From Caviibacterium pharyngocola (lineage in GTDB: Bacteria; Pseudomonadota; Gammaproteobacteria; Enterobacterales; Pasteurellaceae): a DNA stretch of 64,000 bases. This document shows positions 5,390 to 63,745 of the stretch, piece after piece. How positions within the stretch are numbered: position 1 is the stretch's first letter; each line of letters begins with the position of its first letter. The notes under the pieces are model-generated. The model was not told the DNA's origin and did no database searches. It was given only the letters and a program-made list of their open reading frames with translations. Made by a program: the position numbers and the translations under genes. Location of the stretch: the NCBI RefSeq assembly GCF_002795405.1, contig NZ_PHGZ01000013.1:1-64000 (forward strand), in the 5' to 3' direction.

Positions 5390-5434
5390 AAGCGTATTCC
5401 TATCTTCCTCATCTCGTGTTAAAATTACACATTT

Positions 5435-5620
5435 TTGATAACATCAAAGTAATAAGCGAATATTTTTTACCCTAGCACGGCAAAGCCGTAGGGTATAGCC
5501 TATGGCTGAAGTCGCCCCTCCGGGGCTACTAGAGTGGCGGAGCTACTCCACTATACGTAACCGATTGCAACCGTAGGTTGCTGTCGGATAAAAGTTGATA
5601 ACATCAAAGTAATAAGCGAA
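5435..5620 (+). repeat. 26-bp direct repeats flanking a multi-hairpin element (copy 1)
   Basis: The same 26 bases (starting TTGATAACATCAA and ending AATAAGCGAA) occur at 5435-5460 and 5595-5620. Between them lies a 127-bp element (about 5467-5593) running from TTACCCTAGCAC to GTCGGATAAAA. It folds as a string of hairpins with three-base loops: TACCCT/AGGGTA enclosing ACGGC-AAA-GCCGT; AGCC-TAT-GGCT; GCCCC-TCC-GGGGC; GAGTGGC-GGA-GCTACTC; and CCGA/TCGG enclosing GCAACC-GTA-GGTTGC. The downstream repeat ends seven bases before the rsfS start. The arrangement looks like an insertion with target duplication. No protein is encoded. Confidence 0.85.
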
Positions 5621-5627
5621 ATATATA

Positions 5628-5936
5628 ATGACCTTAACCGATTTTTTAATGACTAAATTGGACGATTTAAAAGCGACGGATATTTTAAATTTTGATGTAC
5701 GAGGCAATTCTTCCGTGACCGATAATATGATTATCTGCACCGGCACATCCGCCCGTCACGTTGCTTCATTGGCGCAAAAATTGATCGACGAAAGCAAACA
5801 GGCGGGCTTTGAAGCTTTCGGCGAAGAAGGCAAAGCAACCGCCGATTGGGTGGCGGTGGATTTCGGTCAAGCCATCGTGCATATAATGCAACGAGAAAGC
5901 CGCGAGTTGTATCAATTAGAAAAACTCTGGAGCTAA
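5628..5936 (+). CDS. rsfS: Ribosomal silencing factor RsfS (YbeB/Iojap family)
   Basis: A 102-residue protein that binds uL14 on the large ribosomal subunit and blocks subunit joining when nutrients run out. It matches the family in length and motifs: KATDILNFDVRGNSSVTDNM, CTGTSARHVASLA, and the C-terminal DWVAVDFGQAIVHIMQRESRELYQLEKLW. The start codon has only a weak upstream ribosome site, and the second 26-bp repeat lies directly in front of it, so the native leader seems to have been displaced or duplicated by the repeat element. rlmH follows after about 130 bases, as in other Pasteurellaceae. Confidence 0.94.
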   Translation: MTLTDFLMTKLDDLKATDILNFDVRGNSSVTDNMIICTGTSARHVASLAQKLIDESKQAGFEAFGEEGKATADWVAVDFGQAIVHIMQRESRELYQLEKLWS

Positions 5937-6065
5937 ATGTTTCAACACACAGAGCCTCATAAGAGCGAGGCCCTATGTGTTGCCCTGAATTGGAAGAGGT
6001 TACGCCTCTTCCAATTAAATTATCCGCCATAAATGGCTGGGTTTCAACCATAAGGTAGATATTTG
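5937..6065. repeat. Intercistronic hairpins between rsfS and rlmH
   Basis: Three inverted repeats fill this spacer. AATTGGAAGAGG (5988-5999) and CCTCTTCCAATT (6005-6016) form a perfect 12-bp stem with a five-base loop. GCCTC and GAGGC, with outer complementary arms, pair within 5944-5981. GCCAT-AA-ATGGC lies near 6029-6040. None is followed by a T-run, so they are not ordinary terminators; they resemble the other hairpin strings in this window without sharing their core sequence. Confidence 0.7.
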
Positions 6066-6533
6066 ATGAAAATTCAGTTAATTGCGGTCGGCACCAAAAT
6101 GCCGGATTGGGTAACTCGCGGATTCGAAGAATATCAACGCCGTTTCCCGAAAGATATGCCTTTGGAGCTGATTGAAATTGCGGCGGGAAAACGCGGCAAA
6201 AACGCGGATATTAAGCGAATCTTGGAACAAGAAGGCAAAGCCGCGTTGAATGCGTGCGGCAAAAATAAAATCGTCACCTTGGATATTCCCGGTAAACCTT
6301 GGACGACAGCACTGCTGGCGGAACAATTAGAAGCGTGGAAAAATGATGGGCGCGATATTTGCATTTTAATCGGCGGGCCGGAAGGTTTATCGCCGGAATG
6401 TAAAGCCGCCGCCGAACAAAGCTGGTCGCTGTCGCCGTTGACCTTGCCGCATCCTTTAGTGCGCATTGTGGCGGCGGAAAGCCTATATCGTGCGTGGTCG
6501 CTCACGGCAAATCATCCGTATCACCGCGAGTAA
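6066..6533 (+). CDS. rlmH: 23S rRNA pseudouridine-1915 N3-methyltransferase
   Basis: Methylates pseudouridine 1915 in helix 69 of 23S rRNA using S-adenosylmethionine. The 155-residue protein has the typical length and the SPOUT knot motifs [14 protein letters not shown] near residue 100 and [20 protein letters not shown] near the end. ATG at 6066 gives the family start MKIQLIAVG; the TTG directly before it is also in frame. It lies 33 bases before mrdA. Confidence 0.96.
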
Positions 6534-9670: not shown

Positions 9671-10519
9671 ATGAAACTAACGAAAACCTTAAAATGTATT
9701 CTTGCCTTGTCGATTGCGGCGGTAACACTTTCGACGCAGGCGGAAACAAAGAAGTTATACGGCGTGCAAGGCCCCAAGTTGACTTATAAACAACCGACGA
9801 CCAAATCGCATTCTTACCAAGTGAAGGGCGTCACTTATACGACCAAAACGCATCATAATGCGAAAAATTATTCGAAAGAAGGCGTAGCGAGTTATTATCA
9901 CGCCAAATTCAGCGGGCGCAGAACCTCGAACGGCGAACTTTACAGTCCGGCGTTATACACCGCTGCGCATAAAACGCTGCCGTTGAATTCCTATGCGTTA
10001 GTTACCAACTTACATAATAATCGTAAAGTGATTGTGCGGATTAACGATCGCGGACCGTTCACCCGCGGACGAATTATCGATTTATCCTCCGCAGCGGCAA
10101 AAGAAATCGGTCTTCTCGCACGCGGCACGGGCAATGTGCGAGTTGAAGCTTTACACGTTAGCTCGGAAGGTAAAATTTCCGGCCCTGCGGCGGCGGCATT
10201 GGCAAAAACAACAACCCATCCCGAAGGGCTCAGCCGATTAGACACAAGTGCGGTGGAAAATTCGGCGAAAAATAAAAAGCCCTCCGAAAATATGGACGGC
10301 TATAAAATCCGAATGTTGAACGTCAACAGCAAACAACAAGCGGAACAAGTGATTGCGGAATTGGCGCTGGAAAACGTCAAAGCCGAAATTTCACAAAACG
10401 GCAAAAAATACGATATTCACTTCGGGCCGGTGACAAGCAAAAACGAAGTGAATCGGCTAAAAGCACAGTTACAAAAACTTAATCGTTCCAAACAACTGAT
10501 TGTTTATGGCTATAACTAG
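9671..10519 (+). CDS. rlpA: Septal ring lytic transglycosylase RlpA family protein
   Basis: Cuts or binds denuded glycan strands at the division site. From the ATG at 9671 the 282-residue protein has a signal peptide (KCILALSIAAVTLSTQA), a double-psi beta barrel (GVASYYHAKFSGRRTSNGE, then RINDRGPFTRGRIIDLSSAA, near residues 70-150) and a C-terminal SPOR domain (roughly 205-280) that binds peptidoglycan. Unlike E. coli RlpA, no lipobox cysteine follows the signal, so it may be a free periplasmic protein. A TTG at 9656 in frame would add five residues. It closes the mrdA-rodA-rlpA group. Confidence 0.92.
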   Translation: MKLTKTLKCILALSIAAVTLSTQAETKKLYGVQGPKLTYKQPTTKSHSYQVKGVTYTTKTHHNAKNYSKEGVASYYHAKFSGRRTSNGELYSPALYTAAHKTLPLNSYALVTNLHNNRKVIVRINDRGPFTRGRIIDLSSAAAKEIGLLARGTGNVRVEALHVSSEGKISGPAAAALAKTTTHPEGLSRLDTSAVENSAKNKKPSENMDGYKIRMLNVNSKQQAEQVIAELALENVKAEISQNGKKYDIHFGPVTSKNEVNRLKAQLQKLNRSKQLIVYGYN

Positions 10520-10566
10520 GGCGTGTTGAATTTCTGAGTATATAAATGACGCCGAAATAGTTCCGT

Positions 10567-10694
10567 TTTTATCCGACAGCGACCAACGGTCGCAATCGGT
10601 TACGCATAGTTGAGTGGCTCCGCCGCTCTATACTATGAAGGAGAAATTCCGTCGTAGTCTGATTGTAGCTGTGCGGTTTGGTGTGCTAGGGTAA
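10567..10694 (-). repeat. Multi-hairpin intergenic element, copy 2 (reverse orientation), between rlpA and dacA
   Basis: Read on the minus strand this 128-bp stretch starts TTACCCTAGCAC and ends GTCGGATAAAA, the same ends and length as copy 1. The shared core has GAGCGGC-GGA-GCCACTC (10612-10628 on plus) followed by CCGA/TCGG enclosing GCGACC-GTT-GGTCGC (10573-10599). The left half differs from copy 1 and is less well paired. No coding potential was seen. Confidence 0.8.
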
Positions 10695-10780
10695 GAATGG
10701 TACGGGTTTAAAATAGTAAATTCAAAAGATCAACAAACCTGAAATTAATTCAAAATAAATTTATTTAGGACATTAGATGT

Positions 10781-12029: not shown

Positions 12030-12324
12030 ACAATAAAACTAAAAAGATTTTATAAATCAAATGATTAGATTAATTTTGCGTAGAGAATATGTTATAGCCC
12101 TAATAAACGCATTTTATAATAATCTGTACCCCTCCTGCATTACAGAGTGGCGGAGCCACTCAACTATGCGTAACCGATTGCGACCGAAGGTCGCTGTCGG
12201 GTAACAAATTGACAAATAGGGAACCTGTAGGAACGCACTGCGTGCGTCCGTATTCTGCCTAACCGATTGCGACCGAAGAGCGCTGTCGGATAAAAATCCC
12301 ATACGATAATAAAAGGAAAAACGA
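12030..12324 (+). repeat. Multi-hairpin intergenic element, copy 3 plus a second partial core, between dacA and ybeD
   Basis: The core at 12145-12203 has GAGTGGC-GGA-GCCACTC (12145-12161) and CCGA/TCGG enclosing GCGACC-GAA-GGTCGC (12174-12200). A second half-core follows at 12259-12292, with a decayed stem (GCGACC against GAGCGC). Between them ACGCAC-TGC-GTGCGT (12233-12247) adds another three-base-loop hairpin. The left end TTACCCTAGCAC is missing, so this copy is truncated or rearranged. The remaining bases, 12030-12140, are AT-rich with no recognised feature apart from the ribosome site of ybeD near 12314. Confidence 0.8.
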
Positions 12325-62538: not shown

Positions 62539-62586
62539 ATGAATTTTAACCGCACTTCTCATCATCACCACCATTTCCCTGATTGA
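62539..62586 (+). CDS. hisL: Histidine operon leader peptide
   Basis: ATG to TGA encodes MNFNRTSHHHHHFPD: five consecutive histidine codons, the sensor of charged histidyl-tRNA. The E. coli leader also ends in a histidine run followed by PD. Ribosome stalling here decides between antiterminator and terminator in the downstream leader. The codons for RT contain an uptake signal (ACCGCACTT at 62549-62557). Confidence 0.93.
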   Translation: MNFNRTSHHHHHFPD

Positions 62587-62604
62587 TCTTTCAGGCGTTT
62601 TGTG

Positions 62605-62689
62605 GTGCTTGGAAGATAACCTTCCGAGTAAGTGCAGTAAGCAAATAGGAAAACCTCTCGGAAGATAACTTTCGAGAGGTTTTTTTATC
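62605..62689 (+). terminator. his attenuator
   Basis: AACCTCTCG (62652-62660) pairs with CGAGAGGTT (62673-62681), extended inward by AAG/CTT, and is followed by TTTTTT: an intrinsic terminator upstream of hisG. An earlier stem GGAAG-ATAA-CCTTCC (about 62612-62626) shares the GGAAGATAAC wording, so the two regions can pair alternatively, which fits an antiterminator. Confidence 0.88.
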
Positions 62690-62717: not shown

Positions 62718-63617
62718 ATGTCAGACAACAAAAGATTACGCATCGCAATGCAAAAAAAAGGCAGATTAACCAAAGAATGCAGCGAATTGCTCAAACAATG
62801 CGGTGTAAAAATTAACTGGAACGAACAACGTTTAATCGCTTATGCGGAAAATATGCCGATTGAAATTTTACGCGTGCGCGACGACGATATTCCGGGCTTG
62901 ATTTTCGATGGCGTGGTGGATCTCGGCATTATCGGCGAAAACGTGCTGGAAGAGGAAGAACTCGGTCGCCTCGCCGCCGGTGAAGCCGTTGCCTATAAAA
63001 AATTACGTCAATTCGATTTCGGCGGCTGCCGTTTATCTCTCGCCATCGACCGTGATCGCGCTTACCGCAATGTGCAAGATTTCACCAATGCCACCATCGC
63101 CACATCTTACCCGAATTTGTTAAAACGCTATATGAAAGAACAAGATGTGCCGTGCAAAAGCATTCTATTGAACGGTTCGGTGGAAGTGGCGCCAAGCGCA
63201 GGGCTTGCCGATGCGATTTGCGATTTGGTTTCCTCCGGCGCAACTTTGGAAGCCAACGGCTTGCGCGAAGTGGAAGTAATTTATCAATCCAAAGCCTGCT
63301 TAATTCAACGCGCCGAACCTTTAGATGCCGACAAGCAAGCGCTTGTGGATAAATTGCTCACCCGTATCCAAGGCATTTCCCAAGCTCGCGAATCCAAATA
63401 CATTATGCTACACGCACCGACAGAAAAATTACAAGAAATCACCGCACTTTTACCCGGTGTCGAACACCCGACTATTTTACCTTTAGCGGAAGACGGCAGC
63501 AAAGTGGCAATGCACGTCGTCAGCCAAGAAAATCTGTTCTGGGAAACAATGGAAAAATTAAAAGCCGCCGGCGCCAGCTCGATTTTGGTGTTACCGATTG
63601 AGAAGATGATGGAGTAG
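62718..63617 (+). CDS. hisG: ATP phosphoribosyltransferase (long form)
   Basis: First step of histidine synthesis. The 299-residue long form includes the catalytic domains ([20 protein letters not shown] near the start, [12 protein letters not shown] near 73, [20 protein letters not shown] near 150 with the PRPP-binding site) and the C-terminal ACT-like domain for feedback inhibition ([20 protein letters not shown] near 225). Expression is controlled by the hisL attenuator. The gap to hisD holds a hairpin cluster. Confidence 0.96.
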
Positions 63618-63619
63618 TC

Positions 63620-63714
63620 CCTATACTGACGTATAGGGTTACGCATTGTGCGGTTGCTCCGCAACCTGTCGCAGCGCGACAGCATTATGCGTAACCTAGC
63701 ACGCAGTGCTAGGC
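63620..63714 (+). repeat. Multi-hairpin element, copy 4, between hisG and hisD
   Basis: CCCTATAC-TGAC-GTATAGGG (63620-63639) is followed by GGTTACGCAT (63638-63647) pairing with ATGCGTAACC (63688-63697) around two inner hairpins, GGTTGC-TCC-GCAACC and CTGTCGC-AGC-GCGACAG. CCTAGCAC-GCA-GTGCTAGG (63696-63714) ends it. The ATGCGTAACC and CCTAGCAC words are shared with copies 1-3, so it is a variant of that family. It lies inside the his transcript. No T-run. Confidence 0.75.
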
Positions 63715-63745
63715 ATAAAACGTAAATTTAGAATAAGGAAAAAAT

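Follow-up and report, generated by a model that had tools for sequence, protein, structure and literature searches.

The hairpin-rich sequence lying between two identical 26-bp repeats in the rsfS leader of Caviibacterium pharyngocola is likely a non-autonomous, REPIN-like A-D miniature (after its terminal hairpins, A and D) that inserted there, with the 26-bp repeat as a one-off by-product. The element is one of a dispersed family associated with a Y1 transposase, and its chief interest lies in linking a transposase of apparent subclass 1.2 type to hairpin elements of its own, rather than in the 26-bp repeat. The window, that is, the whole 64-kb stretch of DNA analysed, contains the following features.

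5417-5425, plus strand: extended -10 box TGTTAAAAT of the promoter presumed for rsfS, found at a similar position in relatives (by-eye comparison)
5435-5460, plus strand: 26-bp direct repeat, promoter-proximal copy (exact, maximal match)
5467-5591, plus strand: REPIN-like A-D element, core (covariance model built without the rsfS copy); a T-run and an A-run at its flanks stretch it to about 5464-5593
5469-5494, plus strand: A terminal hairpin, ACCCTAGCACGGC AAA GCCGTAGGGT, slightly decayed
5497-5548, plus strand: three inner hairpins, AGCCTATGGCT, GCCCCTCCGGGGC and GAGTGGCGGAGCTACTC (same plan in the L002 and L003 copies)
5561-5587, plus strand: D terminal hairpin, CCGATTGCAACC GTA GGTTGCTGTCGG
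5595-5620, plus strand: 26-bp direct repeat, start-codon-proximal copy (exact match)
5628-5936, plus strand: rsfS, 102 aa, with the element in its 5′ leader (open reading frame; relatives up to 84% identical)
10567-10694, minus strand: second A-D copy with a decayed A hairpin, inside a MITE at about 10516-10742 (genome search, covariance model)
12101-12204, plus strand: partial copy, D half kept (covariance model)
12209-12293, plus strand: partial copy, D hairpin (genome search, covariance model)
63615-63717, minus strand: related hairpin-pair element of another subtype (covariance model)

The 134 bp between the 26-mers (ends included) fold as five successive hairpins, in keeping with the 127-bp multi-hairpin element that a previous sequence-only reading had placed at 5467-5593. 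A known RNA family was rejected for this structure because Rfam gave no match within 5435-5620; elsewhere in the window, Rfam recognised a His operon leader (62562-62687) and an RpsF leader (46534-46448). Searching the element's own genome (2.49 Mb, 43 contigs) returned 28 partial or full matches; 13 near-full A-D copies retain both ends, and 11 of these were aligned and folded. These copies share a plan that begins with the A hairpin, CCTAGCACGGC-AAA-GCCGTACTAGG, and a linker, continues with two or three inner hairpins whose loops are mostly of three bases and a mirrored linker, and ends with the D hairpin, CCGATTGCGACC-NNN-GGTCGCTGTCGG; a T-run ahead of A and an A-run behind D are usual. Four stem pairs have changed on both sides, in an alignment much of which is too conserved to test, and the D hairpin of the rsfS element itself carries a compensated change from G-C to A-T relative to other copies. 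A search pattern for the D hairpin with a fixed 4-nt spacer matched just two copies, because most D loops differ in length.

A covariance model built from the 11 copies, with the window copies excluded, recovered the rsfS element at 5467-5591 (73.8 bits, E 1.5e-15) and the second copy at 10694-10569 (53.5 bits). This second copy, which the sequence-only reading had already pointed out, is real, but it lies on the minus strand, its A hairpin is decayed, it has no 26-mers and it sits inside a larger inverted-repeat MITE. The partial and related copies at 12101-12204, 12209-12293 and 63615-63717 are additional to it. In the wider search of Pasteurellaceae that the same reading had called for, the model matched 57 of 140 genomes, with hits per genome reaching at least 25, a count that overstates copies, these palindromes often being detected on either strand. 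A comparison of congeners for empty sites of stand-alone copies found three loci without the element, which indicates its turnover, the intergenic DNA being too diverged for a base-exact junction. At one orthologous site (L327; G085 908788-909376), just the left half of the element is retained, which suggests decay via internal deletion.

The genome encodes one full-length Y1 transposase (tnpA; about 151-153 aa; L029 1489-1950 on contig C13) and one fragment. Inverted D hairpins flank the full-length gene, and a complete A-D element lies directly upstream of it. The protein matches the Y1_Tnp profile PF01797 at 81.6 bits and the IS200 profile NF033573 at 64.3 bits (cut-off 55), and it also has sequence matches to solved Y1 transposases. 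Relatives of TnpA occur in 46 of the 140 family genomes, in one to three divergent copies each. Counting stable hairpins within 120 bp of the gene at 30 tnpA loci, a procedure that often missed the D hairpin owing to its internal mismatch, we found them upstream at 24, downstream at 25 and on both sides at 20, compared with 11% of control windows. In three relatives (loci L174, L175 and L178), a D and an A hairpin bracket tnpA, matching the pair found in the element; taking tnpA out of such a unit would thus leave an A-D element. Across genomes, TnpA and element matches occur together in 38, TnpA alone in 8, the element alone in 19 and neither in 75 (Fisher p 1e-12, ignoring shared ancestry), an association that is partly circular in that hairpins adjacent to tnpA can also match the covariance model. 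Weighing against the proposed reading, 19 genomes have element matches and lack this TnpA, and some of these elements have spread in MITEs by another route.

The TnpA family shares the motifs DHIH/DHLH and YIKNQK-HH and an extra C-terminal tail. The Y motif of the C. pharyngocola protein reads YIKNKKEHH, with K in place of the Q found in the other aligned relatives. The motif and the tail also occur in homologues on Bernardetia and Persicobacter plasmids (30% identity), but not in a Klebsiella plasmid IS200-type transposase. Judged by these motifs, the transposase appears to be of the TnpAY1 subclass 1.2 type. By eye, repeated palindromes are also visible beside the gene on the Bacteroidota plasmids (L392 88-400; L393 100-400 and 830-1000).

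At rsfS, a gene named from the earlier reading and from gene order, the arrangement of the leader points to an insertion. None of the 40 upstream regions inspected in relatives contains the element; in most of them a -10-like box precedes the rsfS start by about 35-50 nt, and the promoter-to-ATG leaders of relatives are short. In the window this distance is 202 nt, and removing the element together with one 26-mer restores the usual spacing, at 42 nt. In the closest relative (G007), the -10 box is followed by TTTTAGTTAAATCAACG, which by eye resembles TTTTTGATAACATCAAAG in the window. One copy of the 26-mer is joined to the promoter and the other to the start codon, and the 5′ half of the 26-mer resembles the single leader of G007. 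The 26-mer is therefore most likely pre-existing rsfS leader sequence that now stands on both sides of the element. We also considered the 26-mer as a component of the element and rejected this, as no other copy in the genome carries it. The earlier suggestion that a small, mobile, non-coding element had inserted upstream of rsfS is thus upheld by the multi-copy family, the likely cognate transposase and the absence of the element from rsfS in the relatives inspected.

Another dispersed repeat, about 140 bp long, strongly folded and without an Rfam match, occupies 5936-6081 between rsfS and rlmH. It ends in AAGGTAGATATTTGATGAAA and may thereby give the gene that follows its ribosome site and start codon. 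Nine more copies, 77-98% identical, occur in the same genome, and G018 has two; ATGAAA follows in both of the copies inspected.

The 26-bp repeat is itself exceptional in the window. The 26-mer TTGATAACATCAAAGTAATAAGCGAA occurs at 5435-5460 and again, exactly as first reported, at 5595-5620; the match is maximal, with no extension on either side. Nowhere else in the 64 kb do exact direct repeats of 20 nt or longer lie within 400 bp of each other, and the chance expectation of such a pair is about 4e-9. The palindrome TTGAT-AAC-ATCAA with which it begins, previously read as a hairpin with a three-base loop, is negligible, folding at only -0.2 to -0.9 kcal/mol. The element ends 1-3 bp from each 26-mer. 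The two 26-mers are perfectly identical, versus 82% identity between the rsfS element and its nearest copies, which suggests that the duplication event was recent.

This duplication is not shared by the family. When the 70-bp flanks of the other 12 copies in the genome were compared, the longest direct repeats measured 5-11 bp, within the range of shuffled sequences, and the 11-mer contains a DNA-uptake-signal word; at 45 copies in 13 other genomes, the maximum is 10 bp. Target duplication is not expected of Y1 transposition. Since none of these 57 copies has a comparable duplication, the 26-bp repeat is peculiar to the rsfS site, a one-off event and not a signature of the family. It is a local curiosity, and it cautions against inferring target-site duplication from one copy.

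We propose that the sequence at 5464-5593 would combine, back to back, the two terminal hairpins of a Y1 unit (D from its left end, A from its right), with tnpA missing. The genome's TnpA would recognise the D and A hairpins in single-stranded DNA and move the element, which would have entered the rsfS 5′ leader between the promoter and the start codon. The 26 bp of leader would have been duplicated at insertion, by gap repair or template switching at the hairpin-rich junction, and not as a regular target-site duplication. The repeat probably stems either from such repair or template switching or from an earlier duplication of the leader. The latter, in which slippage first duplicated the leader in tandem and the element later inserted between the copies without a duplication of its own, is unlikely in our judgement: it needs no special mechanism and agrees with the lack of flanking repeats at other copies, as Y1 insertion predicts, but it demands a near-exact strike at the junction, and none of the relatives inspected has a tandem leader. 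With the element lying 1-3 bp from each repeat, a duplication that arose during or after insertion is more likely than insertion into an older tandem repeat.

MITEs constitute a second vehicle for these elements. Many copies, including that at 10567-10694, lie inside MITEs of about 200-220 bp with inverted ends of about 20 bp (GGGCTTGTTGATCTTTTGAG-like) and with apparent 4-bp YTAR targets; from these ends and targets, the MITEs appear IS5-like. In one genus, near-identical MITEs carrying the element inside are scattered genome-wide, and the A-D pair was observed as cargo of IS5-like-ended MITEs in several genera (L002, L003, L004, L008 and L012; L232-L246; L272-L307). Other copies stand alone without MITE arms (L007, L013, L016, L017 and L019). 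A non-coding element would thus travel as a passenger of a second transposition system, unrelated to the first. No autonomous IS for the arms came up in searches with the arm DNA and with DDE_Tnp_1 or among the small contigs and contig starts inspected; the autonomous partner may lie in an assembly gap, since such an arm is cut off by the end of the contig in two cases. Arrival of the element at rsfS inside such a MITE, mobilised by a DDE enzyme and since stripped of its arms, would fit the fact that its nearest copies (L002 and L003) and the 10567 copy all sit in MITEs. We nevertheless consider this route very improbable, given that 5435-5620 holds no trace of an arm, that the targets of these MITEs look to be 4 bp rather than 26 and that arm-free copies exist.

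An equally doubtful reading takes the structure as a selected regulatory leader, with RNA hairpins controlling rsfS expression, and not as a passenger insertion. Its strong folding and its position in the presumed 5′ UTR would suit such a role, but the inspected relatives lack it at rsfS, other copies lie at unrelated genes and Rfam does not recognise it. Perfect repeats abutting the rsfS element had also prompted the proposal that long target duplications, of about 26 bp, are a regular property of the family, which is scarcely credible now that the 12 other copies in the genome and the 45 elsewhere show nothing above 11 bp, the 11-mer itself being a DNA-uptake-signal word.

The insertion of a REPIN-like A-D miniature therefore remains our preferred reading, and it can be set against several known systems. 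REPINs (Bertels and Rainey 2011, PMC3116915) likewise consist of two inverted REP-like hairpins and a spacer, are dispersed between genes, are non-autonomous and are tied to a Y1 transposase gene that carries the same flanking hairpins. Here too, an inverted hairpin pair is repeated as a unit and the Y1 gene is flanked by such hairpins. In contrast to REPINs, the element has unlike ends (A and D), two or three further hairpins in the spacer and no GTAG foot, and its transposase is not a classical RAYT (22.8 bits against profile NF047646, cut-off 80). The GTAG-type REPs and RAYTs of Haemophilus (Nunvar et al. 2010, PMC2817692) also comprise REP-flanked Y1 genes in the same bacterial family; however, those REPs, which begin GTAGGGTGGG, fall within the RAYT branch, and the A and D hairpins differ from them in sequence and foot. 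A classical GTAG RAYT system was rejected as a candidate, the Y motif being YIKNxKxHH and not Y---NP, the NF047646 score falling below its cut-off and the foot being absent. We found nothing relevant on Pasteurellaceae MITEs or palindromes in the open-access literature.

Like IS200/IS605 elements and their miniature derivatives, the system has a Y1 HuH transposase and subterminal hairpins. As to insertion without target duplication, the 57 other copies show no duplication, whereas the rsfS copy has its 26-bp repeat. It differs in having one full-length gene instead of many identical IS copies, and in non-coding copies that far outnumber gene copies. The closest counterpart of the transposase is TnpAY1 subclass 1.2, described by Quentin et al. 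2018 as low in copy number, without REPs and mostly from Cyanobacteria and Bacteroidetes, with a Y---Q--HH motif, a length of about 148 aa and a conserved C-terminal tail (PMC6006769). The TnpA family agrees in its length of about 150 aa, DHIH, the YIKNxKxHH motif (K for Q in the C. pharyngocola copy), the C-terminal tail and a low, divergent copy number; unlike the published members, it occurs in Pasteurellaceae and is flanked by hairpins. The published automatic REP search demanded a GT[AG]G foot (PMC6006769), whereas the feet in the copies and around tnpA read TTAACC or GTAACC. On balance, we favour the view that subclass 1.2 Y1 transposases have a REP-like class of their own, without a GTAG foot and with two unlike hairpins, which forms REPIN-like populations in Pasteurellaceae, possibly also in Bacteroidota, and has spread further inside IS5-like MITEs. 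The REP/RAYT story would then gain a transposase branch that had been regarded as REP-less, and one gene, two unlike hairpins and tens of copies would offer a compact system in which to test how REP-like elements move.
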